Shown here piece after piece: positions 8,410-62,501 of a DNA stretch of 64,000 nucleotides. Both the position numbers and the translations under genes were made by a program. This DNA is from Chitinophagaceae bacterium (GTDB lineage Bacteria > Bacteroidota > Bacteroidia > Chitinophagales > Chitinophagaceae), in NCBI GenBank assembly GCA_019638595.1, contig JAHBTJ010000021.1:1-64000 (forward strand), read 5' to 3'. Numbering within the stretch: position 1 is the stretch's first letter; each line of letters opens with the position of its first letter. The notes under the pieces were generated by a model. It was not told where the DNA came from, did not search any database, and was given only the letters and a program-made list of their open reading frames with translations.

Positions 8410-8955
8410 TTGAGTCGGAACCCTGCAGATATTGACCTCATAAACGGATGCATCAGCAACGACCGTCAGGCACAGGAACGTTTGTATAAACAGTTCTACG
8501 TGTCTATGACCTCTATTTGCATGCGGTATACACACAACGAACACGATGCGATAGAGGTATTACATAATGGATTTTTAAAAGTATTCAAGCACATCCACCA
8601 GTTCGATCACATGAAGGCCAGCTTGTATACCTGGATAAGGACTATTATGGTAAACACGGCCATTGACTTTGTGCGGCAGCATCATAAGCATGCAAGGCAG
8701 CTTGAACTGGACCAGGCTACAGAACCGTATATTGACAGTGAGGCGTTGCAAAAGCTGGATGCCGGCGAGCTGCTGCATCTTGTACGCAAACTTCCGCGGG
8801 CTACACAAACTGTATTCAACCTGTACGTAATAGAAGGATATACACATAAAGAAATCGGTGTTAAAATGGGCATCAGCGAAGGAACAAGCAAATGGCATTT
8901 AAGTGAAGCCAGAAAATTATTGCAGAAATCACTCAAAACATTATATGTAGTGTAA
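8410..8955 (+). CDS. ECF-type RNA polymerase sigma factor
   Basis: 181-residue sigma-70 family protein with region 2 (about 25-95, including YTWIRTIMVNTAIDFVRQH) and region 4 (about 120-175, LPRATQTVFNLYVIEGYTHKEIGVKMGISEGTS) and little between. The start is a TTG: upstream in frame there is a stop at 8377 and no ATG or GTG before 8410, and the first in-frame Met is inside region 2. Its stop overlaps the start of the next gene (TAATG at 8953-8957), so the two are translationally coupled. The partner protein is probably its regulator. No SusC/FecR genes are adjacent. Confidence 0.85.
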   Translation: MSRNPADIDLINGCISNDRQAQERLYKQFYVSMTSICMRYTHNEHDAIEVLHNGFLKVFKHIHQFDHMKASLYTWIRTIMVNTAIDFVRQHHKHARQLELDQATEPYIDSEALQKLDAGELLHLVRKLPRATQTVFNLYVIEGYTHKEIGVKMGISEGTSKWHLSEARKLLQKSLKTLYVV

Positions 8956-12296: not shown

Positions 12297-13628
12297 TTAC
12301 CTCACAGGTTTTGTTGTACCATATCCGCTTCCTCCCCTGAACCATTTCCCGGCTTCGCCGGTAAGCCACAGGTAATAATCCGTATCAAGCCCGGCTTCAA
12401 TACCCACAAAACGTTTATCGCCATGCAAGGGAAGTTCTCCTTCTTTTGCACATTTGAATATAGCCGTACCTTCATCTATCTCGTCAAACATTGCCACATA
12501 CAAAGATCTTGCACCGGAAATCTTTGCACCGGCTACCTGTTTCCATAAAAAATCCCCTTTCAACCTGGGTATCGAATTATACTGAGTTTCATCGTCCTTA
12601 AGGTTACCCCAGCTAAAACCAGGGAAGACCAAAGGAACATAATCAATTTTATTGGTTGCACACCATTGTATGTCGCCCGCAAGCTCGGCGCCTGCAACAG
12701 TATTGTAGTTATCATTGCCGTAACGGCCAACAGCCCAGGGCATGATAATATCCGCTTTTTTGATCAGGTTATGCAATTGAAGATTGTTCTCGGTATCATT
12801 TTTTAAGCTACGCCAGTAATAAGGAACACCCAGCATTACCGATACTTTTTTGCGGGGGCCCTTCAGCTTATCTACCAACTGGTCTACATTGGCTATGGTA
12901 TACTTTCTGTTATCATTAAACCCAACGCCCCATAATACGACCAATGGCTTTTTATTATGCCTCAGGTATGTAGGATGTTTCACATTATCGAACAAGGAAA
13001 AAGTGGTTTGCAATTCATTCCAGTCCTGCTCTATATAGGCTACATCTTCGGGCGAACAGCCACTCAGATCGTACATGACGCAAACTGCTCGATCATATTT
13101 TTTTGCAGCTTTTAGCGCATTTTCAAGCACTTTGTTAAAATGCCTTTTGCCTGCCGCATTAGAGGGTTTGATTTCTACTACAAACCGCTGCATAAAAACG
13201 CCGTCTATTCCATACTCTTTCATCCATTTAAAATGCAGGTCTACACTTTCTTCATCATAAGGACTGTACAGCGGCGCGTTACTTCCATCTGCAAAACTAA
13301 AGGGCGAAGGATACGTTTTGGTATACTCCGCCATATCAGGCCAAAAATCAACTGATGAGCATCCGGGTGTAAAGCCTCCGCAACTGCCATTTTGATAATG
13401 ATACCATCCTCTGTCCGATCCATCGCCCTGGGCAGCAAACCATCCCTGGTAACCCGCCATCACAAGGTTAGTGTAAGATGTGTACAGGCAACCGGTTTCA
13501 TCATACACTATTTCTTCATTATTATTACCGCCACCCGGGGGATTTTGCGTGGAGGGCGTATTCTTTTTTGAGCATTGCAGCAGCAGCAAAGAAACGCCCA
13601 CCAGGCATGCCAGTCTTACATACTTCAT
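12297..13628 (-). CDS. GH71/GH99-like glycoside hydrolase lipoprotein (PUL-A)
   Basis: 443 residues. The lipobox ends at Cys19 (SLLLLQC), followed by a Ser/Pro/Gly-rich linker and a TIM-barrel domain. It opens with AGYQGWF and continues with DLHFKWMKEYGIDGVFMQRF and a late FDEIDEGT block in which E383 and E386 have the E-x-x-E spacing of the acid pair in GH99 endo-alpha-mannanases (WxEWHEGT-type). Members of the related GH71 clan cleave alpha-1,3-glucans, so the linkage is not certain; the GH92 gene in the same cluster favours alpha-mannosides. Surface lipoprotein placement fits an endo-acting enzyme that starts polymer breakdown. It is separated from the DUF3823 gene by a 140-bp inverted-repeat element. 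Confidence 0.75.
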   Translation of the reverse strand: MKYVRLACLVGVSLLLLQCSKKNTPSTQNPPGGGNNNEEIVYDETGCLYTSYTNLVMAGYQGWFAAQGDGSDRGWYHYQNGSCGGFTPGCSSVDFWPDMAEYTKTYPSPFSFADGSNAPLYSPYDEESVDLHFKWMKEYGIDGVFMQRFVVEIKPSNAAGKRHFNKVLENALKAAKKYDRAVCVMYDLSGCSPEDVAYIEQDWNELQTTFSLFDNVKHPTYLRHNKKPLVVLWGVGFNDNRKYTIANVDQLVDKLKGPRKKVSVMLGVPYYWRSLKNDTENNLQLHNLIKKADIIMPWAVGRYGNDNYNTVAGAELAGDIQWCATNKIDYVPLVFPGFSWGNLKDDETQYNSIPRLKGDFLWKQVAGAKISGARSLYVAMFDEIDEGTAIFKCAKEGELPLHGDKRFVGIEAGLDTDYYLWLTGEAGKWFRGGSGYGTTKPVR

Positions 13629-13814: not shown

Positions 13815-14495
13815 TTAAATGGTTATTTTAACCGGCGCGATATAATTTAATTTGGCTTCGCCGATATCTATCAAAGCCCCTACCCGGAAATAATAATCAT
13901 TACCCGGTTTCAGCAATGAACTTTGCGAAGGAAGGTCTATCTCCAGCGTATATATATGTGCAGGATCAGGAACCGCATTGATCTGCTGCTCGGCTGCCAC
14001 CATCCTCATAGGCTCGCCTACACGTGAATCAGCATGTGCATACAAACCTATCTTTCTTACATTGTTGATAACTGTTTGCTCCAGCGAAAATGTGGCGGTT
14101 ACCTTATCACCAGACCGGGTGATGCTGCCATTTTTGATCCGTATATAAGGAGTAACCGTAAAATCGAGCGTAGTTTTTCCATTGATGCTTACTTCCTGCG
14201 GAGCTACCTCAACAAAATTACCCCGCTTTGGCTGTACCGTATAGGTATTGGAAAACAACAGGCTATTCTCATATGTTCCATCTGTTTTTACAATAAGATA
14301 CTGTGGCTCTACAGGATCGTATCCATGCTCAAGGAGTTCAATCTGTGTACCGCGAATAATATCCTGTTGTACCAGTTCACCGGTTTGTGCGTCTATAAAC
14401 CTGCCTGATAACCCGGCAGTGGGTCCGTCATAATTGTCTTTTTTGCAGGATGCCATTAACAGGGTAATGCAAAAAAGCAAATAAATTCTTTTCAT
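13815..14495 (-). CDS. DUF3823 domain lipoprotein (PUL-A)
   Basis: 226 residues with a lipobox ending at Cys17 (LLMASC). The mature protein has a carboxypeptidase-regulatory-like beta domain (GLSGRFIDAQTGELVQQD...GTQIELLEHGY) and a second beta domain, the arrangement of DUF3823 proteins. These are encoded directly after SusD genes and occupy the place of SusE/SusF surface glycan-binding proteins, so carbohydrate binding is likely but inferred from position. The stop codon lies two bases from the inverted-repeat element downstream. The gap to the SusD gene is 68 bp. Confidence 0.85.
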   Translation of the reverse strand: MKRIYLLFCITLLMASCKKDNYDGPTAGLSGRFIDAQTGELVQQDIIRGTQIELLEHGYDPVEPQYLIVKTDGTYENSLLFSNTYTVQPKRGNFVEVAPQEVSINGKTTLDFTVTPYIRIKNGSITRSGDKVTATFSLEQTVINNVRKIGLYAHADSRVGEPMRMVAAEQQINAVPDPAHIYTLEIDLPSQSSLLKPGNDYYFRVGALIDIGEAKLNYIAPVKITI

Positions 14496-14563: not shown

Positions 14564-16471
14564 TTAATACTGCGGGTTTTGTACCAGGTCGTTTGAACCG
14601 ATACCTGGTATATAGCGGTAATATGCACGAGGCTCAAATGTCCTGGTGTTGGTATTAGGCACATTAACCCGTACAAAAATGTATTTCTCTTCCGGCAAAG
14701 CACGCAGATCCCGCAGTGGTAAAATGGCGTGCATATAGCGATTGTTAAACTCCGTATGAAATTCTCTTCTGCGGATAAGATCCCAAAAGCGTTTATTTTC
14801 AAACGCCAGTTCCACTCTTCTTTCTCTTTGCACATTTTCCGGTGTAAGCGCAATATCTGTGATATGCCCGGCTCTTTTACGGATATCGTTGAGCGCCTGT
14901 GCCGCCAGCGATGCATCGCCGCTACCGCTTTCAACTACGGCTTCAGCATAATTCAGCAATACCTCAGCGTAACGCAGCTCAATAAAGTCGGTAGTGCCCT
15001 GGTTCCAGCCGGGTGCCACAGGTTTATTTTCGTCGAGGAATTTTTTAAAAGAGAAGCCGGTACGTGTATTGTTGCCGCCATACGTATCAAACCCTGAATA
15101 CTGGCCGGGAGTGGCTGCGCCATAGGTATAATAGGTAGTACCACTAATAGTGACCTGGTCGTTGGTGCGGATAACGGCACTTCCGTCGGGCTTTACAAAG
15201 CCTGCCTGGATGATGATCTCCGTATTCTTCCACATGGTTTGTGGTAACACCGCTGTGCCCCACAGGCGTGCATCTTTATTCAGGAAGATATCGTGCGGTG
15301 TATTGTAACGGATATAATCTTTAGATACGTTATAACCATTATAATCATTTACATTTCCATCTGTAGTGGTTGCCACCGGCGCGCTGGAACCGGGGTTATC
15401 ATACGACTCATATGTATCTACGAGATCGAGCGAAGGATTCATTCTTCCGGGATGCGGCCAGCCGTTGGCAAGCTGGGCGGGCTGGTACCATATATCATAG
15501 TTTTGCCCGTTGCCATTGCCTGGTATGGCGTAACCTTTTATGAGCATAACTTCCGGGCTTGCTTCATTAGGATTTTGAAACAACTGCTGGTAGTTTTCTG
15601 CCGCATCGTCCCGGTCGGCAGGATTGGCGCGAAACAGCCCGTACCTACCGGATTGTATAATAGCTTCTGCCGCGGCAATACACTGGTTATAATATCCGTT
15701 TGCTAACGATGCATCCAGACCAACCAGCTTTGCTGTAACAGCATCTCCGGATAAAGGAGCGCGGTTACCGAACTTTGCCAGCGAGGCCGCATGCAGGGCT
15801 GCTCGTGATTTTAATGCCAGCGCAATCCATTTGTTGGCACGGCGGGTATCTGTACTGCTTTCCGTTAAATTGTTTCCTGCCTGGTCCAGCAGCTCCATCA
15901 CGTAATCCCATGTTTCCTGCTCGGTGCTTCTTGGTACTTTTATACTTTCAACGGTTCCATCGTACTGCTGCGATTGTTTCATCAACGGTACTCCCCCGTA
16001 TCTTTTAGCAAGCGCAAAATAGGCGTATCCTTTAATAAAAGCGCTTTCCCCAACCAGGGCAGCACGGTCTGTCTCGCTAACATCAAGCGTGGGAATAACA
16101 TCAATCAGCATATTCACATCCCGGATCAGCTTAAAGCCATTATCCCACCATTGAAAATCATCATTGCCTAAAAAATCGCCGAACTCACTATGCACCGCTT
16201 CATCGGTAGCCATAGCAGGTGCAAAGCCACCGTTGTTTACATCTCCTGTTCCGGGACTGCTGTTCCAACGGAACCCCTGCCGGAAAAATGTAAAATCTTC
16301 TATAGGCAACTGGTAATACAGGTTGGCCATGTAAACTTTAACACCCTCGGGATTACCAAAAATTACATTAGCCGTAAGCCTGTCGGTAGGTTCTATATCA
16401 AGCACCTTGCTGCAGCCCGCACTAAATATCAGGGTTGCCAGTAACAGTATTTTTATTGCAGATCGTATCAT
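14564..16471 (-). CDS. SusD/RagB family outer-membrane lipoprotein (PUL-A)
   Basis: 635 residues, lipobox ending at Cys20 (LIFSAGC), then VLDIEPTDRLT typical of SusD N-termini. It has the TPR-like helical body with the conserved FIKGYAYFALAKRYGGVPLM block and the C-terminal RRVELAFENKRFWDLIRRREF block. SusD proteins are the lid on the SusC barrel and bind glycan at the cell surface. The gene follows the SusC gene with an 10-bp gap, so both are in one operon. The length is somewhat above average because of insertions in the ligand-binding face. Confidence 0.95.
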   Translation of the reverse strand: MIRSAIKILLLATLIFSAGCSKVLDIEPTDRLTANVIFGNPEGVKVYMANLYYQLPIEDFTFFRQGFRWNSSPGTGDVNNGGFAPAMATDEAVHSEFGDFLGNDDFQWWDNGFKLIRDVNMLIDVIPTLDVSETDRAALVGESAFIKGYAYFALAKRYGGVPLMKQSQQYDGTVESIKVPRSTEQETWDYVMELLDQAGNNLTESSTDTRRANKWIALALKSRAALHAASLAKFGNRAPLSGDAVTAKLVGLDASLANGYYNQCIAAAEAIIQSGRYGLFRANPADRDDAAENYQQLFQNPNEASPEVMLIKGYAIPGNGNGQNYDIWYQPAQLANGWPHPGRMNPSLDLVDTYESYDNPGSSAPVATTTDGNVNDYNGYNVSKDYIRYNTPHDIFLNKDARLWGTAVLPQTMWKNTEIIIQAGFVKPDGSAVIRTNDQVTISGTTYYTYGAATPGQYSGFDTYGGNNTRTGFSFKKFLDENKPVAPGWNQGTTDFIELRYAEVLLNYAEAVVESGSGDASLAAQALNDIRKRAGHITDIALTPENVQRERRVELAFENKRFWDLIRRREFHTEFNNRYMHAILPLRDLRALPEEKYIFVRVNVPNTNTRTFEPRAYYRYIPGIGSNDLVQNPQY

Positions 16472-16481
16472 AAATTATTGT

Positions 16482-19400
16482 TTAGAAGGTTACGTTCAAA
16501 CCAAAATTGTAGTTTTTGGTAAGCGGGTAATTGAACCCTGCATTAAATAATCCTTCCAGTCTTTCCGGATCGAAAGGTTTTACAAACTCGTCGGCAAACG
16601 TTAAGAGGTTAAAGCCGTTTGCATACACGCGTATTTTTTGAATACCCGCGGCTTTGTACAAACGCGGACTGATCGTATACCCCAGCTCAATGCTCTTCAG
16701 ACGGAGGTAAGAAGCATCTTTTCTCCAGATGGAGCTTTCTTTATACATGCTGCCCACGTCGGCAATAAACCTGCTGGCAGGCCATTTACCGGGTATCCAT
16801 TCGCTTTTGCTGTCGTAAGGATCAGAAAGATGCCACCTGTCGTAAAAATAGGCAGGCGTATTGCCCCTGAAAGCCATCACCTCTGCATATACTTCATTAA
16901 ACCTTACGGTATACATGGCTGCCCCCTGGAAAAGAACATTTAAGTCAAATCCTTCGTATGCTGCATTTAATGTAAAGCCATAGTTGATCCTTGGATTTTT
17001 GCGTCCGCCGGCATTCAGGTCTGAATTATTGCCAACAGCGCCTGTAAAAATGGGCAACATATCATTGCCATCTACTACGCCATCGTTATTGATGTCCGCA
17101 TATTTAAAATCGCCGGGCAGCTCACGTATATTGGCCTGGTCGCCATTCTGCAGCGGGTAGTTGGCAATTTCTTCGAAGCTCTGGAATTGACCCACATACG
17201 TATAGCCCCATACAATATCATTAAAGCGATAATCACTGCCGTTCTTCCACCTGTTATAACTATTGGTATAGGGTCCTCTCTCCTGGTAGCGGTTCATGGT
17301 ACGGGCATAATTAAAGTTGCCGCTTATGCCGTAAGAAAATTTACCAATACGGTTGTTATGATTAAGGGTGAACTCAATGCCCTGCGTGCGATCGCTGTTC
17401 AGGTTTTCATCAGGCAGGGTTGTGCCGAATGTGTTGGGAAGCGACAGGTTTCTTTTTGCGGGCCATCCTGTCCTGTCTCTGCGGTACACATCAATTTCAA
17501 CATTCAGCTTGTTCCATAAACCTATTTCCAACCCAATGTCTGAATGTGTAGCGGTAACCCATGTAAGAGCGGGGTTTACCAAGCCCGGAGCCTGCGCACC
17601 GGTAGTAAGCGTTCCGTTCGAGAATTCGTAAGAACCACCTCCGCTTAAAGGAAATCCCACGATCCATTGGAATGGCCCGCCGGCTTCCTGCCCCACTTCT
17701 CCAAATGAACCTTTCAATTTGAGGTTAGAGATAAAAGAAAGATTATTCCTGATAAAATTCTCTTCAGATATTCTCCAGCCTGCGCTTACAATAGGGAAAA
17801 AGCCCCAACGCGCCTGGGGAGGATAGGCGTAAGTGCCCATATAACGAAAAGCCAGTTCCACCAGGTATTTTTTATCGAAATCGTAGTTAAACCTTCCCAG
17901 CAACGATTGATATGCCCGCTGGTATTCATTACCACCTGTGGAAATACCCAGCACGTTAAGGCTGGCTCTGTCTATCTGGTCAATAGTATAAAAGCCATCA
18001 TAGCTTCTGCGCAGGTTAGCATTCCTGCCCCATTCTTTTTTCTGTTCAAAAGCTACAAGAGCAGATACATTATGCTTACCGGCAAAACTATTGCCATAGT
18101 TAATCTGCGTTTGGTAAGTGAGCTGGTTGTAATTGTCAAATCCCTGGCTGATGCCTGAAGAAGTACCGGCTCTCTGTAAGCTTGGTATATAATCCCCATT
18201 GGCAAAGCTGTATAAAGTATAGGGTTTGGATACGTCTTTACCCTGGTAGTTATTGATATCATAGGATGCCACGCCTCTTAACGACAAACCTTCTACATAA
18301 GGAATATTGAGCGTTAGCGCAAAAGAAGAAACGAGGTTACGGTTCACTGTTTCACTATAACCCGTAATATCCTTATCCGAAAGGATCAGCGGGTTTTGGT
18401 TACTGGGTGTTACCACTGTGGGGTAGCGGGGATCATCGTTGATATAAGGCTTTTCAGTAGGCAGGGTTACACGTGTGCCTTTAAAAATATTGAAAAAGTT
18501 TTCTCCGGGCGTATAACGGTTGTCGTAACGTCCGCCGATCAATACTTCCACCTTCAGGTTTTTTACGAGCTCGGTAGTAAGGTTCAGGCGCATAGTGTAC
18601 CGTTTATACCCCATATCGTTGCTGCGTAAAAAGCTTTTTTCATCTATATAACCAAGGCTCATGTAATACTGGGTTTTTTCATTGCCACCCGAAGCCGAAA
18701 GGTTATGCTGTTGCTGATTAGCTGTATTCTTCATGGTAACATCGTACCAGTCGGTACTTTCATAACCCGGCGCGCCATCAATATATTTTTGTATTTCCTC
18801 CTGGCTTAAAAAAGGAGTGCCGGTAGAAAACAGTTGCGCTTCATTACGCATTTGTATCCATTCGGCGGCAGAAGCCATGCGTGGTACATCGGTAGGCTTC
18901 ATAATACCGTATACGCCATTATAATTAAAGCTGGCTTTCCCTTTGCTTCCTTTTTTGGTGGTAACTATAATTACACCATTGGCGGAGTTAAATCCGTAAA
19001 TAGCAGCGGAAGCATCTTTCAGCACTGATATGCTTTCTATGTCTTCCGGGTTCATACGCTGAAAATCACCGGCATTATCCCTGATGATACCATCAATTAC
19101 ATACAAAGGACTGCCGAACCCCCTGATGTTGATCATATTGTCGAACGTACCGGGCTCACCGCCTAACTGGCGTATTTGTAACCCTGCTACTTTACCCTGC
19201 AGCTTTTGGGCAAGGCCTACATTGGTAGAAGTTTGAATTTCCTTATTGGTGATATTACTAACGGCTCCGGTCAGGGTTTCTTTCCTTTTGGTACCGTATC
19301 CTACCACTACCACTTCGCCCAGGTCGCTGTTGGCGGGCAGCATTGTGATCGTAATAACATCCCTGCCCCTGATACTTTCCACCACATCGGCCATGCCCAC

Positions 19401-19703
19401 ATAGCTGAACCGCAGCTCCCGTACGTTGGCGGCAACAGTAATGCTGAAATCTCCGTCCTGGTCGGTAATGCTATTCACCGCATTGCCGGCAGAAATGGTA
19501 ACGCCGGAAAGTGGTTGCCCATCCTGCCCATTCAGCACTTTTCCTTTTATTACCTTTTGCTGGGCAAGAAGACACAGCGGCATTACAGCCCAAAACAGCG
19601 CAAGAAAAAACACCTTCTGCACCAGGGCAATGCTGTGCGTTTGTATACTGATTCCTTTTTTGAAGAATCGCTTTTTAAAAAAATCGATCATATTTACTTT
19701 CAT
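16482..19703 (-). CDS. SusC/RagA family TonB-dependent transporter without STN domain (PUL-A)
   Basis: 1073 residues. Signal peptide, then directly a carboxypeptidase-regulatory-like domain (VIKGKVLNGQDGQPLSGVTI), the TonB box-like GEVVVVGYG, the plug (TLTGAVSNITNKEI, SISVLKDASAAIYG, ANGVIIVTT) and a 22-strand barrel ending in LNVTF. It imports the oligosaccharide captured by its SusD partner. There is no STN domain and no ECF/FecR pair nearby, so this unit is not under FecR-type control. A 140-bp gap separates it from the beta-helix gene upstream and may contain its own promoter, though none was recognised. Confidence 0.95.
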   Translation of the reverse strand: MKVNMIDFFKKRFFKKGISIQTHSIALVQKVFFLALFWAVMPLCLLAQQKVIKGKVLNGQDGQPLSGVTISAGNAVNSITDQDGDFSITVAANVRELRFSYVGMADVVESIRGRDVITITMLPANSDLGEVVVVGYGTKRKETLTGAVSNITNKEIQTSTNVGLAQKLQGKVAGLQIRQLGGEPGTFDNMINIRGFGSPLYVIDGIIRDNAGDFQRMNPEDIESISVLKDASAAIYGFNSANGVIIVTTKKGSKGKASFNYNGVYGIMKPTDVPRMASAAEWIQMRNEAQLFSTGTPFLSQEEIQKYIDGAPGYESTDWYDVTMKNTANQQQHNLSASGGNEKTQYYMSLGYIDEKSFLRSNDMGYKRYTMRLNLTTELVKNLKVEVLIGGRYDNRYTPGENFFNIFKGTRVTLPTEKPYINDDPRYPTVVTPSNQNPLILSDKDITGYSETVNRNLVSSFALTLNIPYVEGLSLRGVASYDINNYQGKDVSKPYTLYSFANGDYIPSLQRAGTSSGISQGFDNYNQLTYQTQINYGNSFAGKHNVSALVAFEQKKEWGRNANLRRSYDGFYTIDQIDRASLNVLGISTGGNEYQRAYQSLLGRFNYDFDKKYLVELAFRYMGTYAYPPQARWGFFPIVSAGWRISEENFIRNNLSFISNLKLKGSFGEVGQEAGGPFQWIVGFPLSGGGSYEFSNGTLTTGAQAPGLVNPALTWVTATHSDIGLEIGLWNKLNVEIDVYRRDRTGWPAKRNLSLPNTFGTTLPDENLNSDRTQGIEFTLNHNNRIGKFSYGISGNFNYARTMNRYQERGPYTNSYNRWKNGSDYRFNDIVWGYTYVGQFQSFEEIANYPLQNGDQANIRELPGDFKYADINNDGVVDGNDMLPIFTGAVGNNSDLNAGGRKNPRINYGFTLNAAYEGFDLNVLFQGAAMYTVRFNEVYAEVMAFRGNTPAYFYDRWHLSDPYDSKSEWIPGKWPASRFIADVGSMYKESSIWRKDASYLRLKSIELGYTISPRLYKAAGIQKIRVYANGFNLLTFADEFVKPFDPERLEGLFNAGFNYPLTKNYNFGLNVTF

Positions 19704-19843: not shown

Positions 19844-21076
19844 TTATTTACCTATTACTGTATTATACAGGTTCTCATCTTTATCAATACAGGCAACTGC
19901 CTGTATTACCGCGGCAGGGTTTTTAACTGTGATGGGTTGTTCTGCGGTATAATTGCGCATGCGGCAACCTACCATCGAGATCGTAAGCTTATCCGAACCA
20001 CGCACTTCCATATAATCGTACGATTGCTTTATATTGGTAAGCGCACCATTATCGCCGCTAAAAGCTTCTACATTGGTGAGTGCAGTATGCCCCTGCCCTT
20101 CTATAATAATGGGATGGATATCTTCCAGCACCGTACCTGCATTGGCGATAATAGAACCCTGTGCAATCTGCCAGTTCCTGTTTTTGGTATTATTACCGGC
20201 TTTATGCAAGCCAACTACTACGCAATCGAGATTAAAATTGGTAAGCTGCCCATAACTTTCGTTGCCCAGGTAAATGCCGCCCCATGTGGCGAAGGTGAAC
20301 AGGTCTATCAACTGCGCGTTATCCGTATGGTTGATCGCAAACGCGAATGTTTTATTCTGCACTACAGCATCAATTACCGCTTTTGAAAAACCGAGGCGCA
20401 TCTGCCGCATAATGGATGGATTGACATGGCAATGCAGGATGCGGGGTATATCGTAGCAATAGTCAATCCGTATAAATTCGCCGCTCAGCGGGTAGCCGTA
20501 ACAATGCTCAATAAGTATCAGCTCACAGGCATATTTGCGATCAGCATTAAAGTCCATTGCTGTATACTCGCCGTAAAATGTAAGATTCGACAGCGTAACA
20601 CCTTCCGTTTTGGTGGTTTTGCTCACCTGAATAGTGGGTGGGTACTTTATAATCCTGGCAGGATCTTTTAACTCCTGCTCTGCATACCAGAATTGTATCC
20701 CTCTTATTTGTGTAGCCGATTCCACGATAAACAAAGGATGTTTATCATCCATTACTTTAAACACACTTCCTACGGGAGCTTTTTTACTGCTGTGACTAGT
20801 AGCCCGCGGTACAGGACCATGTACTCCCAGGATAGATACATTCTTTTTAAGAATCAAACCGCTCGCCAGCGCATAAGGCTCATCAGACGGTTCCACAAAC
20901 AGGGCTGCCCCTGTTGCCGAAGCCCAATCAATGGCTTTTTGCAAATTTGCCGTATTGGTTTGCGGATCGTTTTGTGGTAATACTTTAAAGTCTTTAATGC
21001 TTTTACCCTGTTGAGCAAAAACTAAAAAACTGTTGCAGGCAAATAGCAGAACCAGGATTAATTTCATAAATGGCAT
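19844..21076 (-). CDS. Secreted right-handed beta-helix protein (pectate-lyase-like fold)
   Basis: 410 residues with a signal peptide (KLILVLLFACNSFLVFAQ). An alternative ATG three codons in (21067) gives a shorter signal peptide and is equally plausible. The opening KDFKVLPQNDPQTNTANLQKAIDWA is the typical start of pectate-lyase-superfamily and GH28/GH55-type beta-helix proteins, in which an N-terminal helix caps the coil. The rest is a series of short beta turns rich in Asn and Ile. I see no clear catalytic acid pair of GH28 or GH55. It may act as a lyase, glycosidase or binding protein. It is encoded 33 bp after the GH92 gene and is probably co-transcribed with it. Confidence 0.7.
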   Translation of the reverse strand: MPFMKLILVLLFACNSFLVFAQQGKSIKDFKVLPQNDPQTNTANLQKAIDWASATGAALFVEPSDEPYALASGLILKKNVSILGVHGPVPRATSHSSKKAPVGSVFKVMDDKHPLFIVESATQIRGIQFWYAEQELKDPARIIKYPPTIQVSKTTKTEGVTLSNLTFYGEYTAMDFNADRKYACELILIEHCYGYPLSGEFIRIDYCYDIPRILHCHVNPSIMRQMRLGFSKAVIDAVVQNKTFAFAINHTDNAQLIDLFTFATWGGIYLGNESYGQLTNFNLDCVVVGLHKAGNNTKNRNWQIAQGSIIANAGTVLEDIHPIIIEGQGHTALTNVEAFSGDNGALTNIKQSYDYMEVRGSDKLTISMVGCRMRNYTAEQPITVKNPAAVIQAVACIDKDENLYNTVIGK

Positions 21077-21109: not shown

Positions 21110-23341
21110 TTATTTTTCAACTCCCCATTGCTTATTAGGCCTGGAACCCATTTCAAGCACGAGGTTACCGCCATTCATTAGTTGCTCGTGGGTAAAAAAT
21201 GGGGTAGTCAGCTCTTTACCATTCATGGTTGCCCGTTGAATATATTTATTTACCACGGAGCAGTTACGAGCTGTAAGCGTAAATTGATTTCCATTGGTTA
21301 GCTTAATAGTTACTTTACTAAACAGTGGACTTCCGATAGTATATACAGGTATACCCGGCGTAACGGGATAAAAGCCCATGGAAGAAAATACAACGAACGC
21401 ACTCATACCTCCACCGTCTTCATCACCCGGAATGCCGAAAATATTATCCTTGAACCAGGTGTCTAACAAAAAGCGTATGCGCTTCTGTGTTTTCCACGGA
21501 GCACCGGCATAATTATATAAATAGGGAATATGAAAACTGGGTTCATTACCCATCGAAAACTGGCCTACCAAACCGGTAGCATCAGGAAACTTACTCCAGA
21601 ACTCCGGTTTCGATCTGTCAAGCCCTTCCCTGAACAACTGGTCGAGCCGTTGTTCAAATTGCAGCTTACCTCCCATCAAACCTATCAATGCCGGAATATC
21701 CTGCTGCACCTGCCACAGGTAAGTATAACCGTTATTCTCATCGTAATAATCTCTGCCGCCTGGCCCGCCATCAAACTTCGGATCAATATTTATCCAGTTG
21801 CCTTTATCATCTTTGGGTAAAAACATTTGCTTATCTGCATTCCAGAGATTTTTATAATTAGCGGCACGTATAGCAAACAACCGGGCATCTTCATTCCTGC
21901 CAATATCTTTTGCCAATTCACTTAATGCCCAGTCATCGTAACTGCCGCCTAAAGTAATAGCCACCGCCTGCCTTTTTTCAAAATGATGTACCCGTGGTTC
22001 TGTTTCCTTTTCACCAATATGCAGAGCGGGAAAATATCCTGTTGTATGATAGAAGTCGTCGAGTTTTGTTTTTTCGCCATTGCGCCAGGGCAGCATGGTG
22101 GCACCGGTAGCGTTCTTCTTCATTCCCTCGTATGCTTTATGAACATCAAAGTTTTTCAAACCTTTGCGGTAGGCGTCCAGGAAAACAATAGAGGAGTGAA
22201 AACCATTCATGCAGGCATGATCGCCAAACAACACAGGAAAGGTTGGCATCCAGCCGCTCTGTTCATACATGCTCACGTACGATTGCAACATATCTTCTTC
22301 CTGCGCAGGATTTAATATCATGCGCAGGGGATGATGCGCCAAATAGGTATCCCACACCCAGTCATCCGTATAAAAAGGACGGCTTGTTTTATGAATCTTT
22401 TTATCAAAGCCACTGTAATAGGCGCCGTCCTCCGTAATGTCTACCATTCTTTCATAACACCTGTAGAGTGCAGTATAGAAACTTCTTTTCCAGGCATCGG
22501 TTCCTCCCTCTACCTGTATTTGCGACATGGTATTGTTCCATATCTTTTTGCCGGCTTCTGCTATGGTTTCAAAAGATTTGTTTGCCAGCTCGGCCTGGAA
22601 ATTCTTTTTGGCCTGTTCGGCACTGATATAGCTGATGGCATATTGTAATTCCACCTGCCGGGTGCCCTTAGGGAAGCTTACCCAGGCCCTGGCCCCCTCC
22701 GCATTTATTTCCTTTTTTTCAATTACCTGCCCGTTCTCAACAACACCTTGCTTTCCCGGTATGCTCAAAACTCCATACACGTATACTTTTATATCGCCAT
22801 TGTATATTTCCGTTCCGGTTATTTCGCTGGCTGAAATAAACTTCCATTGCGCTGATCCGCCATTATATACTCCAAGCAATAAAGAAGGCTGTTCGGATGC
22901 GGGAAATTTGAACCGGAAACAACCGGCTTTTTTACCCGGTGTAAACTCCACCTTTATTTCATCATCTACCAGGTAAGTAGCATAATACCAGGGTTGATTT
23001 ACTTCCAGCTCGTGATCCCAGGTCATGCCAGTTTGCCAGTTATCCGCCTCTATTTTCTTTATCCAGGGTTTGATGGAAAATACCTGGCCCAGGCGATGAG
23101 ATACTATATTAAGAGGAAAGGAACTGATCTGGTCGTCGAAATGATCGCGGCGCTGGGGTGCAAAACGAATTACCTGGTTGGGTAAATGCACCAGCGGGCG
23201 GGTTGGTTCCAGCAACTGTCCAACATTTCCAATTCGCGGATCTATATAAAACGTATTTGACTTTTGCGTTTGCTGGGCAGGTAGCACAAAAGGCAAACAG
23301 GCAATAGCAATAATAGCTGCCAGGTTAATTATTCTGTTCAT
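21110..23341 (-). CDS. GH92 family alpha-mannosidase (PUL-A)
   Basis: 743 residues with a signal peptide (INLAAIIAIACLPFVLPAQ). It has the GH92 layout of an N-terminal beta-sandwich and a C-terminal (alpha/alpha)6 barrel. Family blocks include TDDWVWDTYLAHHPL, GNEPSFHIPYLYNYAG, and GDEDGGGMSAF with D640 and D642, matching the catalytic base pair of characterised members, then YPVTPGIPVYTIGSPLF. GH92 enzymes are calcium-dependent exo-acting alpha-mannosidases (alpha-1,2, -1,3, -1,4 or -1,6). It is the first gene of the apparent PUL-A transcription unit and has a 351-bp regulatory region upstream. Confidence 0.93.
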   Translation of the reverse strand: MNRIINLAAIIAIACLPFVLPAQQTQKSNTFYIDPRIGNVGQLLEPTRPLVHLPNQVIRFAPQRRDHFDDQISSFPLNIVSHRLGQVFSIKPWIKKIEADNWQTGMTWDHELEVNQPWYYATYLVDDEIKVEFTPGKKAGCFRFKFPASEQPSLLLGVYNGGSAQWKFISASEITGTEIYNGDIKVYVYGVLSIPGKQGVVENGQVIEKKEINAEGARAWVSFPKGTRQVELQYAISYISAEQAKKNFQAELANKSFETIAEAGKKIWNNTMSQIQVEGGTDAWKRSFYTALYRCYERMVDITEDGAYYSGFDKKIHKTSRPFYTDDWVWDTYLAHHPLRMILNPAQEEDMLQSYVSMYEQSGWMPTFPVLFGDHACMNGFHSSIVFLDAYRKGLKNFDVHKAYEGMKKNATGATMLPWRNGEKTKLDDFYHTTGYFPALHIGEKETEPRVHHFEKRQAVAITLGGSYDDWALSELAKDIGRNEDARLFAIRAANYKNLWNADKQMFLPKDDKGNWINIDPKFDGGPGGRDYYDENNGYTYLWQVQQDIPALIGLMGGKLQFEQRLDQLFREGLDRSKPEFWSKFPDATGLVGQFSMGNEPSFHIPYLYNYAGAPWKTQKRIRFLLDTWFKDNIFGIPGDEDGGGMSAFVVFSSMGFYPVTPGIPVYTIGSPLFSKVTIKLTNGNQFTLTARNCSVVNKYIQRATMNGKELTTPFFTHEQLMNGGNLVLEMGSRPNKQWGVEK

Positions 23342-23692
23342 TTCTACCTATGTTTTATTTTTTAAAAGTGACATAAGTATGGCTAAAATGAAGCGGAGAA
23401 ATGGCTAATGTCGTAAAATATGAAAAGAGAAGGGGCTTTTTCATAAAGCAGTCTTTCGTTAAAATAATACACGAAATAAACCGCAGGGCATTAACAGGGG
23501 GGTTAATAAACCCACTAATTGGAAAATTAATTTTAATTTTTGGGGATTATTGTGCTCAAAAACACAAACTCAGCCGGAACGAGGAAAAGGAATTACAGGT
23601 GCGCAGGGTACAGGTTTCAGGATGTGTGTATCTTAATAATTATTATGAATTGCTATTTTAGTACCTTACCGGCCCTCATTAAGCCTGAACTT
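23342..23692. promoter_or_regulatory. Regulatory region upstream of PUL-A
   Basis: 351 bp without a supported gene, between the GH92 start and the stop of the SARP-like regulator gene. Read on the minus strand, two exact copies of TTAGCCAT (plus-strand 23379-23386 and 23401-23408) lie 22 bp apart, two helical turns, ending about 38 bp before the GH92 ATG. A dyad ATTAAC-N6-GTTAAT is at 23490-23507 and a 12-bp palindrome AAAATTAATTTT at 23523-23534. No full Bacteroidota -33/-7 promoter was found. Confidence 0.45.
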
Positions 23693-26224
23693 CTATCCAT
23701 TTCCTGTTAGCTGGGCAAAAGTTTTTTCAAAATCCTGGCCATAGGTTTCATGGTATTCTTTGGCGAACCTGGTATAGGCATCTTTTGCCAAACCGTGTCT
23801 TCCCAAAAAAATCAGGCTGCGGCATTTATAAGCCAGGGCCTCCTCGTTCAACTGGTCCGACAGGAATATTGCATTCGATATTTTTATAATAAACTCCGCA
23901 TCCGTTTCTATACCGGCTGTGGCGAGGTATTGCAGCAGCGTATCTACAATCAATTCCGAAACTTCAGACTTTATGTCATCCAGCCAGTTATAATGTAACT
24001 GGCCTAAAAAGCTCCCCCGCTGCAAGAGGTGAACCAGTTCTGCAATATTTGTTCTGCTTACAGGCTGTTGCACTACTAATTCCATAAACCGCTGATAGTC
24101 GATAGCAACAACATTATCCTGTATTTCCAGCCTCAGCTTCCCTGAATCCCGTTCAATATGGCAATCGCCGATCTTTTCAAGGATCGGTTTTAGCTTTACA
24201 CTGTTCACCGAATAATTGTTGCGGGCGTCTTTGGTTGATTTATCACTCCATATTGTTTCAAATAATTTTTCTGACGTAATGCCTTTTCCATCTTTATAAG
24301 TATGTATAAGCACCAAAAGAAAGATTTCTTTCAGCAGTGGCGAAAACAGGTGAGTTATATCATGCCCATCTTTATCAAAAACCTCAAACTGCCCGAACAA
24401 AAAAACGGAAGAGAATTCTTTATATGGCGGATGGGCAGGATGTTCTGCCGGCGCTTCCTGCATAGCTACCGGGGCAACAGGCATAGTGCCGGTTAAAGAG
24501 GTGGTATTGTTTTTTTTCCGTTGCCGGTATACCCATACCAGTCCTGCCAACACAACAATACCTGCACTAATATATAGCCACGCTTTACCACCGGGCGTCG
24601 CAGCAGAAGCAACCACCGTTTCAACCGGGTTGGGAGGAAAATCAAGCGTATATGCTTTTACAACCGTTGTATTATTCTTTTGCATATGGAGTGTAACGGC
24701 AATCAGCTTTTTCGATAACGAGTCATAGTATAAATCGGCAAAAGATTCTATATCGTAAAATAAGTAAGGGATAGAATCCGCCATCAACTCGTATTGATCG
24801 CTGTGCAGTTTTCCCCGAATCAATTGCAAGCTCGAATTGAACCGGTCGTTTGGATAAGTAAGCGCATAATAATGATCAGTACCCTGTTCTATTATTAAAC
24901 TATTGGTAAAGCAGAATTGCTTTGCCGGGTTTTTTAAATGAGTGAGCAGCTTAAATGTTTTATTGCGTACACTATAGGCAATAATATCATAAGTATGCCT
25001 TGGATTAATAGTCTGATCTCCGGTATTGCTACCATAACCGCCTATAATATAGGCAGTATCTCCGGTTTGGTTCATTCCCAAAGCCGCGAGGTACCTGGGC
25101 ATAAAGAAATCTCCGGCAGGTTTTACCGTATCCCATAACCCGGTTGAAAAATGATACCGCTGTATCATATTCTTGTACTGTAGTTGTCCATAACCGGCAA
25201 CAATGTACAGGCATGTATCTACGGGTGAGATAAATTTGTTAGCCTGCCAGAACTCAGTGAGGGTAACACGTGAAAATTTTTTACTCCAATCGCCTCCGGC
25301 AGTATCGTATTCTCTTACTATCTTTTCATCAATATCAAAATTATACAGCCTGTTATTTAAAGGATTTACAATTGCCTGGTTGCCCGCGGGCATTCGGGTA
25401 GCATTGTTATTGACAGCCCTGCTCTTTACCGAAAAATTTTTTAGAGAATATGTATAGATACTATCTGTGCCGGCTATGTATAGTTTTTCATCCTTGCTGC
25501 TGAACGCAAAGCTGGGTGTGCTGCCTGTGGTAACAGATAATACTTCTTCCCATTGCTGATGGCGGGGTTTTATCCACGACGGGTTTTTGACAGGTATCTT
25601 TTCTCCTGATATAAGATTCGCAGTAACATCGCCATTGCTTTCTGCAAGCGGGTAAGCATATTTTTGCTTATCATTTTCAACTATAACAATATCTTTTATC
25701 CGCATAGGGGGTATATCCCTGGTTTGAAAACCAACCCGGTCATTCAACCCAAAATAAATACGGCAGCATAATTCATTTTTAAAAGCATCGTCCTTTCTGC
25801 ATATCTCTTTTCCATTCAGCAGGAAAGCTATACTATTGTCTTTTTTATTTACACGGATCTTCATATTATTCCACTTTCCATACAGGCTTGCAGAATCAAT
25901 AGTAAAAGGAAAAGAAAAGGTTTCGCCAATAACAAAATTGAATTGCAACAATTTCTGGTTGTACACCACATCTATATTCTGGTTGTCGGCGCTGATCATC
26001 CGCAGCACAAAGCCAAAATAAGTTTCCTGGTTTGGGCGAAAGCTGATATCAAAAGAAAGCTCAGTAGTATTAGTAAAGCAAATGGGGTCGCCGGGGGTAA
26101 GATTCAATGAGGTTCTCTTTTCAGGCACTACTTCATGACTTGCAAACTGCAGCCCATGTGACTGGCTGTAAGCAGTACTAAAAAAAAGGAAAGCACATAA
26201 TAATAAAACAATATATCTGCCCAT
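23693..26224 (-). CDS. Membrane-spanning one-component regulator: LamG/kelch-like sensor outside, SARP/BTAD-like DNA-binding domain inside
   Basis: 843 residues. A signal peptide (1-20) leads to a jelly-roll domain at about 25-190 (LSFDISFRPNQETYFGF, INGKEIC-like LamG features), a beta-propeller at about 225-530 with kelch-like repeats (MPRYLAALGMNQTGDTAYIIGGYG), one membrane helix near 548-570 followed by RQRKK, a linker, a winged-helix domain at about 608-680 (FLFGQFEVFDKDGHDIT, KEIFLLVLIHTY, KLFETIWSDKS) and a BTAD-like helical domain to the end. The winged helix plus BTAD order is that of SARP regulators. The protein should sense a ligand in the periplasm and bind DNA from the membrane. 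It lies just upstream of PUL-A, which has no other regulator. Confidence 0.75.
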   Translation of the reverse strand: MGRYIVLLLCAFLFFSTAYSQSHGLQFASHEVVPEKRTSLNLTPGDPICFTNTTELSFDISFRPNQETYFGFVLRMISADNQNIDVVYNQKLLQFNFVIGETFSFPFTIDSASLYGKWNNMKIRVNKKDNSIAFLLNGKEICRKDDAFKNELCCRIYFGLNDRVGFQTRDIPPMRIKDIVIVENDKQKYAYPLAESNGDVTANLISGEKIPVKNPSWIKPRHQQWEEVLSVTTGSTPSFAFSSKDEKLYIAGTDSIYTYSLKNFSVKSRAVNNNATRMPAGNQAIVNPLNNRLYNFDIDEKIVREYDTAGGDWSKKFSRVTLTEFWQANKFISPVDTCLYIVAGYGQLQYKNMIQRYHFSTGLWDTVKPAGDFFMPRYLAALGMNQTGDTAYIIGGYGSNTGDQTINPRHTYDIIAYSVRNKTFKLLTHLKNPAKQFCFTNSLIIEQGTDHYYALTYPNDRFNSSLQLIRGKLHSDQYELMADSIPYLFYDIESFADLYYDSLSKKLIAVTLHMQKNNTTVVKAYTLDFPPNPVETVVASAATPGGKAWLYISAGIVVLAGLVWVYRQRKKNNTTSLTGTMPVAPVAMQEAPAEHPAHPPYKEFSSVFLFGQFEVFDKDGHDITHLFSPLLKEIFLLVLIHTYKDGKGITSEKLFETIWSDKSTKDARNNYSVNSVKLKPILEKIGDCHIERDSGKLRLEIQDNVVAIDYQRFMELVVQQPVSRTNIAELVHLLQRGSFLGQLHYNWLDDIKSEVSELIVDTLLQYLATAGIETDAEFIIKISNAIFLSDQLNEEALAYKCRSLIFLGRHGLAKDAYTRFAKEYHETYGQDFEKTFAQLTGNG

Positions 26225-27594: not shown

Positions 27595-27948
27595 CTACGG
27601 ATCGGCAGAAACAAAGGCTATTCCCAGCCCTATTATTTCGCTCTGCGATAATGAAGGAAGCCTTCCGGTAGCAAGTAGCTTCTTCATTGCCAGGTTACCC
27701 GTTTTTATCGCATCTTCCTTCGACTGAAAAGCCTGGTTGCCCGGTATGGAAGGAATGGTTTCCTGGTGAATATAAATTTTTTTGTCTACTGTAATATCAT
27801 ATCCCCAGCCGTTGTTTGCTTTAAAAGGTATTACCGCTACCGGTAGCTTTTCCTGTCCTGCGTAATATTTCCATATATATCTACTGCCCGCTGTACCAAC
27901 AGCGAGCAGTAAGATAATAACGAAGAATTTTCTTTTACTGATCTTCAT
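27595..27948 (-). CDS. DUF4907 domain protein
   Basis: 117 residues from the ATG at 27948; the longer open frame overlaps the upstream gene far too much and lacks a signal. The chosen start gives a membrane anchor or signal (KFFVIILLLAVGTAGSRY) followed by the DUF4907 core: NNGWGYDITVDKKIYIHQ, IPSIPGNQAF, SKEDAIKTGNLAMKKL. Function is unknown. The start overlaps the stop of the kelch lipoprotein gene by 14 bp, so the two are almost surely co-translated. Confidence 0.8.
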   Translation of the reverse strand: MKISKRKFFVIILLLAVGTAGSRYIWKYYAGQEKLPVAVIPFKANNGWGYDITVDKKIYIHQETIPSIPGNQAFQSKEDAIKTGNLAMKKLLATGRLPSLSQSEIIGLGIAFVSADP

Positions 27949-28981
27949 ATTCGTTGTATGCCTGGTCGGGGAAAAATTCCCGGATGTCTTCCAGCGCCTG
28001 CGTGCTGGTGCTGCTTGTAGTGCCCAGCAATACAAAACCCCTGTTGTTGAGTGAAAAAGCGCAGGCACCCGTTCTTCCTACTCCCTCAAAAGCAGTTTTG
28101 CTTTTCCAGGTATCCGTAGCAAAATCATATTCCCAGGTATCCTTATATACACTACCGCTTTGCCCGGTTGATATATATGCTTTGTTATTCATAACAAAAG
28201 CCACCGCCTTGCTTCTTACAATATTGTAATCATCGTCATAGCTGTCATCGCTCACGTTGCTGATTTTTCTAAGCTGTGTCCAGGCCTGCCCTTCCGGTTT
28301 CGTGGGATCGAACACATTAAAATCGTTGATAGATGAGGTTGAATTATTAGATTGTCCGGTAACTATGTAGGCTTTATTATCGTATACAAAAGCCACCGCC
28401 CCGCTTCTTTTTTCACCGCTCATGCTCACCCTTTGCGTCCAGGCGCCATTTGCTCCTGTTGTTGGGTCAAACTCCCATATATCCTTTAAATAATTACCAT
28501 CGTAGCCGGTAGTAATATACCCTTTGCCCGCAATGCTAAAACCAACCGCGCTGTAACGGGCAGATCCGCCAAAATCTGCCTTCTGCGTCCAGGTATCCGC
28601 TTCCGTATCATATTCCCAAAAATCGTTAAGCTTGTTATACCCGTCCGATCCTGTTCCAATATATCCTTTAGCGCCTATTGCAAAGCCTGTAGCTGCATGG
28701 CGCGCAGTGCCGGGAAATTCGGCTTTCTGCTGCCAGAAATTATACTCGGCATCGTATTGCCACAAATCTTTAAGTCTTTTAGTACCATCGTATCCTGTTA
28801 CCACATATCCTCTGTTACCAATTGAAAAAGATACCGCTTCGCTTCTTCCGTATCCTTCAAAAGAAGAACGGAGTATCCAGTTCCCTTCTGTTGTGTCTTC
28901 GGTATCTGAACTTTTTGTGCAGGAAGTAATGGTCAAGGCACTCATACCCGTTAGCCAGATCAATAACGTTTTCGCTTTCAT
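27935..28981 (-). CDS. Kelch-repeat beta-propeller lipoprotein
   Basis: 348 residues with a lipobox ending at Cys21 (ALTITSC). Six repeats of about 50 residues follow, each with a GY-V/I-TG-DG/SG turn and a W-x-x-K strand, for example GYVVTGYDGTKRLKDLWQYD, which makes a six-bladed kelch propeller. Such surface propellers bind protein or carbohydrate; no catalytic copper ligands of galactose oxidase are visible. It forms a two-gene unit with the DUF4907 gene. A 226-bp gap upstream separates it from the fructose-bisphosphatase gene. Confidence 0.85.
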   Translation of the reverse strand: MKAKTLLIWLTGMSALTITSCTKSSDTEDTTEGNWILRSSFEGYGRSEAVSFSIGNRGYVVTGYDGTKRLKDLWQYDAEYNFWQQKAEFPGTARHAATGFAIGAKGYIGTGSDGYNKLNDFWEYDTEADTWTQKADFGGSARYSAVGFSIAGKGYITTGYDGNYLKDIWEFDPTTGANGAWTQRVSMSGEKRSGAVAFVYDNKAYIVTGQSNNSTSSINDFNVFDPTKPEGQAWTQLRKISNVSDDSYDDDYNIVRSKAVAFVMNNKAYISTGQSGSVYKDTWEYDFATDTWKSKTAFEGVGRTGACAFSLNNRGFVLLGTTSSTSTQALEDIREFFPDQAYNEYEDQ

Positions 28982-41149: not shown

Positions 41150-42307
41150 TCATTCCTTTATTGTTAATACTTCACCCTGCAATACGAATTTCACTTCTGA
41201 AAACCGCAGCATTTCCAACAACTCAGACAGCCTGACATTGCGGGGCAACTCACCATTAAATCGCTTTTCGGGAATACGTCCCTCGTATTGAACAGTAATA
41301 TCGTACCAGCGTTCCACCTGTTTCATCACAGTTTGAATATCCATGTATTTAAAATTGAACCACCCGTTTTTCCATGCCAGTTCGGCTTCCATATCCACAT
41401 CCTTCACTAACCGGGTAATATTTCCAACCACCCGGGCCTGTTGCCCTGGTAACAAAGTCAGCTTATTCCCGCCGTGAGTCAATTGAACAGATCCTTCAGC
41501 AAGCGTGGTTTTCATTACTGCTTCATTTTCGTAAGCCATCACGTTAAAATGGGTACCCAATACCTCGATATTGGTTTTTCCTGCCGTTACCGTAAAGGGA
41601 CGCCGGGAATCAGGCGCTACTTCCAGGTATACTTCGCCTGTAATTGTTATATCGCGCTTCTTATCGCTGAAAACAGTAGGGAAATAAACAGAAGAAGCAG
41701 CATTCAGCCAAACCTGTGTACCATCCGGCAATGTCATATGATACTGTCTTCCTTTGGGAGTAGTCATGGTATTATACACTGTTTCTCCTGCAACCCGCTC
41801 CTTTACTTCTTTATAGGCAAGCCGGCCGTTTTTAAGAACAGCCTGCACCCCATTCTGAGTGGCGATCACACCATTATCCAGGCTGTCGAGCAGCAAACGG
41901 GTACCATCTGCAAGCGTAAGAATAGCGCCGTCCCTGCCGGGGCCAATGTCTACAACTGTTGCAATTGCGGAAGCAGGTGCATTACTTTTTTTATTGATCG
42001 TCCGGAAGAACAGCACGGACGCCAGGATCAATACAACCGAGGCGGCGCTCCAGCCCAAACGGCGGAAATACATCCTGAAAACTGTAGCCCGGTTTTTATG
42101 TTGCTGCAAAAGTCCGAAAATACGTTCGCGGAGCGCCTCATCCTCTTCCGCCTTAAAAGGCATATCCAGCGCTTCTTTAACAACCTTCTCCAGGTCGGCC
42201 CGGTATTCCTCCTTTTCGATCATATCAAATAATTGCTCCTGCTCCTCTGCCAGTATAGCATTGGTGAGGTACTTATCCATCAACTCCTGGAATTTGTTTG
42301 CCGACAT
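41150..42307 (-). CDS. FecR family anti-sigma factor (PUL-B)
   Basis: 385 residues from the ATG at 42307; the frame extends 14 codons upstream, but MSANKFQELMDKYL is the standard N-terminus. Cytoplasmic anti-sigma part at 1-80, membrane helix near 88-108 (WSAASVVLILASVLFF), FecR domain at about 165-285 (PKGRQYHMTLPDGTQVWLNAAS, GEVYLEV) and a C-terminal STN-like DUF4974 domain (FKYMDIQTVMKQVERWYDI). It holds the ECF sigma factor until signalled by the STN domain of the SusC partner. Gap to the sigma gene is 76 bp. Confidence 0.93.
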   Translation of the reverse strand: MSANKFQELMDKYLTNAILAEEQEQLFDMIEKEEYRADLEKVVKEALDMPFKAEEDEALRERIFGLLQQHKNRATVFRMYFRRLGWSAASVVLILASVLFFRTINKKSNAPASAIATVVDIGPGRDGAILTLADGTRLLLDSLDNGVIATQNGVQAVLKNGRLAYKEVKERVAGETVYNTMTTPKGRQYHMTLPDGTQVWLNAASSVYFPTVFSDKKRDITITGEVYLEVAPDSRRPFTVTAGKTNIEVLGTHFNVMAYENEAVMKTTLAEGSVQLTHGGNKLTLLPGQQARVVGNITRLVKDVDMEAELAWKNGWFNFKYMDIQTVMKQVERWYDITVQYEGRIPEKRFNGELPRNVRLSELLEMLRFSEVKFVLQGEVLTIKE

Positions 42308-42383
42308 ATTAAAAATGCTTGCTTGTTGAACAGTAAAGACAGCGATCAATGAAAACAGGTGCAGCGGAGCTCAAAAAAAATTA

Positions 42384-42980
42384 TTACACCAGGGCCGCAA
42401 GCAGCCAAATGACCACTAAAGTACGGTCGGTGTGGCGATATACATATTCCCTGATGCTGTTGAGAGCGCGTATGATATGGCTTTTTACGGTAGCCGGAGC
42501 GATATGCAGCTGTTCCGCAATTTCTGCATAAGTCAGTCCCTGCTCACGGCTCAGCCGGAAAACAAGCCCCTGCTGGGGAGGAAGCCTGTTGACAGCATCC
42601 TGTATGATCTCCGAAACCTGCTTGTATTCCAGCAGCCCGGAGGGAGTAAGATAATCCTGGGGGATCGCGTCTTTTATCTGCTGAATGCCCTTTCTTGAGG
42701 AAACGATCCGTTCGAGGATATTTATAATGGTATTACGGGCCATAATAAAAAGCCAGGCATCCAGATTTTCCACTTCGGGAAGCTTATTTCTCTTTTCCCA
42801 AAGCTTGATGAATACCTGCTGTACCGCATCCTGCGCCTGATCAGGCGTCTTTAAAAAGCTCAGCGCTACCTGGTATATCTTGTTCCAATAGCGATCAAAC
42901 ACCAATTTATATGCTTCCTCATCTCCCTCGGCTACACGTGTAAGCAGCTCTTTTTCCGTATATGGTTGAAAAGACGACAA
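42384..42980 (-). CDS. ECF sigma factor controlling PUL-B
   Basis: 198 residues with region 2 (DRYWNKIYQVALSFLKTPDQAQDAVQQVFIKLWEKR, then LDAWLFIMARNTIINIL) and region 4 (LPPQQGLVFRLSREQGLTYAEIAEQLHIAPATVKSHI). It belongs to the Bacteroidota FecI-like group. The start is TTG at 42980, supported by an AAAGGAG Shine-Dalgarno sequence seven bases upstream, which is rare for this phylum. It ends with a hydrophobic tail (TLVVIWLLAALV). It should direct RNA polymerase to the PUL-B promoter when freed from FecR. Confidence 0.93.
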   Translation of the reverse strand: MSSFQPYTEKELLTRVAEGDEEAYKLVFDRYWNKIYQVALSFLKTPDQAQDAVQQVFIKLWEKRNKLPEVENLDAWLFIMARNTIINILERIVSSRKGIQQIKDAIPQDYLTPSGLLEYKQVSEIIQDAVNRLPPQQGLVFRLSREQGLTYAEIAEQLHIAPATVKSHIIRALNSIREYVYRHTDRTLVVIWLLAALV

Positions 42981-62332: not shown

Positions 62333-62365
62333 GAATATGCTGATTTGTTGTCGCCCAAGCCCGGC

Positions 62366-62396
62366 CAAACATAATCAATGGAATAGTCGTTTGAAA
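62366..62396 (-). promoter_or_regulatory. Candidate Bacteroidota promoter for the PUL-C fecR gene
   Basis: On the minus strand TTTC, then 19 bp, then TATGTTTG. The -7 box matches TAnnTTTG exactly and the -33 box differs from TTTG at one base. It sits about 34 bp before the chosen FecR start, which leaves a short leader. It would allow FecR to be made without sigma. Confidence 0.5.
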
Positions 62397-62501
62397 GACG
62401 GGGTGGTACTATTGGTTTGCAATTTTTTTTAATAGAAATACATAAGATTAAAACACAGAGGGCAGTCCGATAGCTATATTACCGGCGGCTCACCTATCCG
62501 C

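Follow-up and report, generated by a model that had tools for sequence, protein, structure and literature searches.

We analyzed a 64,000-nucleotide stretch of DNA from a Chitinophagaceae bacterium (assembly GCA_019638595.1, contig JAHBTJ010000021.1, positions 1 to 64,000; hereafter the window) and found that the open frame at 23693-26224 of its minus strand, which runs for 843 codons without interruption, encodes a regulator with a C-terminal SARP/BTAD-type domain behind a predicted single membrane helix. The gene stands next to a polysaccharide utilization locus (PUL) that is preceded by a phased array of TTAATG direct repeats. The protein is probably a membrane-tethered SARP one-component activator, which would sense an alpha-mannosidic glycan and activate its own PUL via these repeats. 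PUL regulation has mostly been described through hybrid two-component systems (HTCS), SusR, and ECF/FecR pairs, and SARP modules are known mainly from antibiotic-gene regulators.

The whole-chain model of the regulator starts with a hydrophobic helix at the N-terminus, which is followed by a beta sandwich and a propeller; next come the membrane helix (residues 548-569), a linker modelled with low confidence, and a compact part at the C-terminus (Table 1). Hydropathy analysis gave two hydrophobic stretches, the same as in the model. Across 55 homologue rows, the membrane stretch was above the hydropathy threshold at the expected place in 49, and more positive charge was present after the helix than before it in 52, a positive-inside bias. 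The N-terminal hydrophobic stretch was above the threshold in 26 of the 55 rows, a count that may be too low because each row begins only where the profile match begins. Model, hydropathy, and charge bias thus predict a single membrane helix with a periplasmic sensor, and the protein would insert in the inner membrane. Kelch repeats were the only Pfam matches above cut-off in the chain, which contains a kelch-type beta propeller. Laminin_G_3 was matched in 9 of 36 homologous jelly-roll domains, the window's own copy not among them, and profile comparison of the jelly roll with the PDB returned nothing significant (best E 0.074). The domain order proposed in a first-pass annotation of this DNA, with a signal, a jelly roll, a propeller, one membrane helix and, last, a winged helix-turn-helix (wHTH) plus BTAD-like domain, is borne out by these predictions.

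The same annotation had considered the C-terminal 240 residues to be SARP/BTAD-like, which was made a pre-set test. By fold and by profile comparison, residues 604-843 matched the SARP/BTAD proteins AfsR and EmbR over their entire length. This part of the regulator consists of an OmpR-type wHTH followed by a BTAD helical domain, which it has in common, across the whole 240 residues, with AfsR of Streptomyces and EmbR of Mycobacterium. The assignment is based on fold and profile-profile comparison because a PDB sequence search with the whole regulator gave matches in the propeller only, among the matches listed (60 of 63), and PDB searches with profiles of the C-terminal domain gave nothing significant (best E 0.56 and 0.65). 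The window domain scores in no Pfam family. The Pfam BTAD model, which does not match it, matches 10 of the 55 family members (best E 7.9e-4), and the missing match is a detection limit and not a defining trait. As a family finder in 58 related genomes, the BTAD model was rejected: it marked 22 places and, among the nine that were read, one was a clear SARP (L113) and the rest looked like TPR proteins. We also considered that the SARP-like fold could have a role other than transcription, for example as a TPR-like adaptor at the membrane, given that BTAD is TPR-like and that TPR folds fill many ranks beneath AfsR and EmbR in the structure and profile comparison of the C-terminal domain. However, the wHTH is the best conserved domain of the regulator family (mean majority fraction 0.64), it aligns gap-free (by reading) with the recognition helix of AfsR when the SARP set serves as the bridge, and phased repeats stand at linked promoters. 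We regard the adaptor role as very improbable.

Transmembrane regulators of the ToxR/CadC/TcpP type carry their wHTH at the N-terminus and are not known to have a BTAD domain. VtrA, in the part of its description available, also has an N-terminal wHTH. The window regulator resembles the ToxR/CadC family in its predicted single membrane helix and periplasmic sensor but differs from it in that the wHTH comes after helix 548-569 and not before it. It also differs from the soluble SARPs, since its SARP module is C-terminal, behind the membrane helix and the sensors, whereas AfsR has NOD and TPR domains and EmbR an FHA domain (PMC10936776, available sections). HTCS likewise have the periplasmic sensor first and the DNA-binding domain last and control PULs, but their C-terminal domain is of the AraC type (PMC3878776, available sections), and the Pfam scan detected no kinase, receiver, or AraC domain in the window regulator. 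According to the same sections, SusR binds sugar in the periplasm and has a putative helix-turn-helix near its carboxy terminus, and its DNA-binding domain does not significantly resemble that of any other known regulator; as a PUL regulator with periplasmic sugar binding and a C-terminal DNA-binding part, SusR of Bacteroides is set beside the window regulator by description only. The bacterium's own genome (G000, contig C1:62989-63795) has Y_Y_Y and LuxR-type GerE matches in one 978-aa frame (judged by coordinates), and this sensor-type regulator likewise ends in its DNA-binding domain. Membrane regulators whose DNA-binding domain is C-terminal are already known in Bacteroidota and, with SusR, HTCS, and this frame at hand, the earlier remark that such an order is unusual does not hold in this phylum. 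A 2023 survey (PMC10269533) describes transmembrane transcription regulators, the same general class as the window regulator, as widespread and, in its available sections, identifies DNA-binding domains by Pfam profiles; a method of this kind would probably miss the window regulator because of the lack of a Pfam score in the C-terminal domain.

The regulator belongs to a scattered and apparently undescribed Bacteroidota family. It is single-copy in the window's genome, and no homologue was found in 11 genomes of the same genus. Within the taxonomic family, 42 of 394 genomes gave 61 matches, among them that of the window itself and a weak, partial one (G296), and phylum-wide a match was present in 27 of 395 genomes, including the own genome and weak ones. 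Homologues are mostly whole-length: among 13 that were aligned (22-56% identity), 10 were near full length and 3 were cut by contig ends, and the matches in other families or classes were frames of 843-883 aa, one of which was read (L189) and has the same build. The weak phylum-wide matches that were read were other SARPs, such as a receiver-SARP protein and TPR-SARP proteins. The 55 homologue rows formed 41 clusters at 70% identity. Other architectures were also seen. A tandem neighbour copy (L189:3-1595) has the jelly roll, membrane helix, and SARP domain without the kelch propeller (translation read), and a 423-aa homologue (L103:9457-10728), divergent from a SusC gene, has a signal, a membrane helix, and a SARP domain but hardly any jelly roll or propeller. 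At L186:1390-2205, a soluble SARP-type protein of 271 aa immediately follows an 881-aa membrane copy, and a Bacteroidota receiver-like domain is fused to a SARP domain at L197:1462-2739 (translation read). Broken-frame homologues occur at L009:9968-12553, L102:8477-11103, and L185:2-2232.

The neighbourhoods of 59 loci carrying the regulator were compared with 40 control stretches located 100 kb away on the same contigs. Genes were counted by order, with control genes of at least 250 aa, and loci with too few genes on one side were dropped. SusC was found within one gene of the regulator in 21/56 loci compared with 22/286 control genes, within two genes in 36/55 compared with 31/233, and within three genes in 42/53 compared with 36/188. 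SusC and SusD occurred together within 7.5 kb of the regulator in 34/51 loci and 12/40 controls. The expected association of homologues with SusC/SusD genes was thus recovered, with SusC well above control by gene order, in a comparison whose profiles (for SusC, SusD, GH92, and others) derive entirely or in part from homologue loci, which favours detection there, and in which the homologues are related by descent. Six further SusC/SusD profile seeds from the window were chosen by size and order, and a later Pfam check agreed for all 6. A distance-based SusC control, from which 8 of the 59 loci with short flanks were dropped, gave 20/51 compared with 9/40 within 700 bases (p 0.11) and 43/51 compared with 15/40 within 5 kb (p 6.6e-6); this control was poor because its fixed mock gene could overlap SusC, and the gene-order counts were used instead.

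Enzyme genes also distinguished the homologue loci from the controls. GH92 was detected in 31 of the 59 loci, a GH99-like enzyme in 22, DUF3823 in 21, and a WbsX/GH99-type enzyme and GH43 in 11 each, all compared with 0/40 controls, and 43 loci had GH92, GH99-like, or WbsX. A single GH99-like representative matched Pfam GH99 below cut-off (E 4.1e-5), and one representative of the WbsX/GH99 type was above both cut-offs. Of the 41 clusters, 37 had SusC within the stretch that was fetched, and 30 had at least one of GH92, GH99-like, and WbsX there. GH92 enzymes are alpha-mannosidases, so the signal in many of the loci is likely to be an alpha-mannosidic glycan. This also applies to the window, with GH92 as the gene adjoining the regulator; from this linkage, the window ligand is most likely an alpha-mannosidic oligosaccharide. 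The alpha-mannosidic link is not universal across the family, as the fetched stretches of the most distant clade lack all three enzyme types (GH92, GH99-like, WbsX).

The candidate operator was first spotted by comparing regulator-target intergenic stretches from five loci of one genus, three of another, and the window, and these nine discovery loci were excluded from the held-out count. In 36 target regions, pairs of TTAATG units with at most one mismatch were found at spacing 11 in 8 regions and at spacing 12 in 15, and each of the remaining spacings between 7 and 20 gave 0-3 regions; shuffled target regions gave a mean of 0.2 at spacings 11 and 12 and of 0.2-0.8 across all spacings. Under a fixed criterion, spacing 11 or 12 with two units carrying no more than one mismatch or three units carrying no more than three, arrays were present in 9/9 discovery and 14/27 held-out regions compared with 4/286 control upstream regions (SusC 0/19, other 4/267; Fisher p 7e-14), and other spacing pairs gave 1-4 of the 27 held-out regions. 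Among regulator clusters without discovery members, 11/21 had the array at 70% identity and 7/10 at 50%. Within the homologue loci, arrays were found in 42/314 upstream regions: those of GH92 (13/22), SusC (13/37), GH3 (2/6), GH99-like (2/9), the regulator gene itself (8/47; divergent pairs share a region), and unclassified genes (4/186), with 0/7 for GH2, GH43, and DUF3823 together. GH92 genes without a regulator in the fetched stretch had no array (0/28; in this set, a regulator copy is about 7 kb away from L229, and L211 has only 126 upstream bases). A strict three-unit pattern, drawn up in knowledge of the window site, had one match in the 7.06 Mb of the own genome, as did its reversed control, and in 18 of the 42 regulator genomes it had 5 sites, 4 of them at regulator-linked promoters, compared with 3 for its reversed form. 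TTAAAA-type units, likewise 12 bp apart, were noticed post hoc in the distant clade (L095, L107). A fixed TAnnTTTG element behind the arrays was dropped, as no common offset was found.

These repeats might belong to another regulator, with the membrane SARP acting elsewhere or via proteolytic release of its cytoplasmic half. They are candidate sites by their sequence, the array is missing from 13 of the 27 held-out target regions, and the window array holds an inverted repeat, GGGTT-TATT-AACCC (23500-23513), so another reader of the site is possible. However, a scan of the main frames from 10.8 to 30 kb of the window recognised no regulatory gene other than the regulator, the arrays stand at regulator-linked promoters while being absent from the control SusC genes and from the GH92 genes without a regulator, and 11-bp direct repeats are the site type of the SARP AfsR (PMC10936776, available sections). 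We consider it unlikely that another regulator reads the array. The same scan agrees with the earlier statement that the adjacent PUL has no other recognised regulator type. The proposal that the regulator is a separate mode of PUL control is supported by the SARP/BTAD match, by the linkage with SusC, and by its being the sole regulatory gene recognised in that interval.

In the mechanism that we favour, the extracytoplasmic jelly roll and kelch propeller would bind glycan, in the window an alpha-mannosidic oligosaccharide, and binding would, by way of the single membrane helix, draw protomers together or rotate them. On the cytoplasmic side, the wHTH-BTAD domains could then assemble on the helically phased TTAATG direct repeats before the GH92-SusC-SusD row and, if the AfsR SARP domain is taken as the model, recruit RNA polymerase. 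In the available sections of PMC10936776, the AfsR SARP domain is a monomer in solution and a side-by-side dimer on two 11-bp direct repeats, which overlap the -35 element, and it contacts sigma region 4 and the beta flap; the candidate sites of the window family are direct repeats of 11-12 bp. A membrane-held SARP that gains partners on glycan binding and lines up on phased repeats would fit this anatomy without extra parts. Alternatively, the regulator could be a repressor that leaves the array upon glycan binding, since the DNA tells neither the direction of control nor where the promoter lies with respect to the array. The BTAD-type domain, which takes part in the contact of AfsR with sigma region 4 (same source and sections), is kept here, however, and repression seems quite improbable.

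Table 1. Features of the regulator, its candidate operator, and other genes of the window
Feature	Position	Strand	Residues	Basis or remark
Membrane-tethered SARP/BTAD-type regulator, 843 aa	23693..26224	-		Open frame, family alignment, model, hydropathy
N-terminal signal/anchor			1-21	Model, hydropathy
Laminin-G-like jelly roll, putative sensor	25580..26161	-	about 22-215	Model
Kelch-type beta propeller, putative sensor	24629..25564	-	about 221-532	
Single membrane helix (predicted)	24518..24583	-	548-569	Model, hydropathy, positive-inside bias
Linker			570-603	Low confidence in model
Cytoplasmic SARP-type DNA-binding and BTAD-like domain	23696..24415	-	604-843	
wHTH subdomain			604-701	
BTAD-like subdomain			702-843	
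Candidate operator, four TTAATG-type direct repeats, period 12 bp	23483..23530	-		141 bp before GH92 start codon
GH92 enzyme (alpha-mannosidase family)	21110..23341	-		Pfam GH92 E 4.9e-156; first gene behind repeat array
410-aa protein without recognised family	19844..21076	-		Same gene row
SusC-like TonB-dependent receptor	16482..19703	-		Pfam Plug, CarboxypepD_reg
SusD-like protein	14564..16471	-		Pfam SusD_RagB E 1.6e-34
DUF3823 protein of PUL	13815..14495	-		Pfam
443-aa protein without recognised family	12297..13628	-		End of gene row
ECF sigma/FecR pairs beside other SusCD pairs	41150-42980 and 61118-63080			
Lone ECF gene	8410-8955			

A cultured relative, Segetibacter aerophilus (L008), shares the layout. 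The cluster of the 410-aa protein has members in 2 of the 59 loci, the window's included. Of three other SusCD pairs in the window, two adjoin an ECF/FecR pair and the third is in tandem with one of them. A separate kelch protein with NANM-like matches (27935-28981) is encoded by the second gene past the regulator, counted away from the PUL.

A search of the open-access literature by title or abstract yielded no membrane SARP of Bacteroidota among the matches listed. As far as this search shows, the combination of SARP output, membrane anchor, jelly-roll/kelch sensor, PUL linkage, and predicted operator is new. We lean, with some reserve, towards a further class of PUL control in Bacteroidota, in which tethered SARPs, staying in the membrane, would assemble on two to five phased TTAATG repeats, chiefly at alpha-mannan loci, with the ectodomain reading the glycan. 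The family was probably overlooked by Pfam-based surveys, and it would extend SARPs from soluble antibiotic-gene regulators to membrane-bound glycan sensing. With its operator readable, a one-component SARP in the membrane would be a simple addition to the classes of PUL control and would explain PULs that lack known regulators, and it would offer a system of few parts for testing how a signal passes through a single membrane span to DNA. If this is true, the array would make the target genes of many family members readable from sequence.
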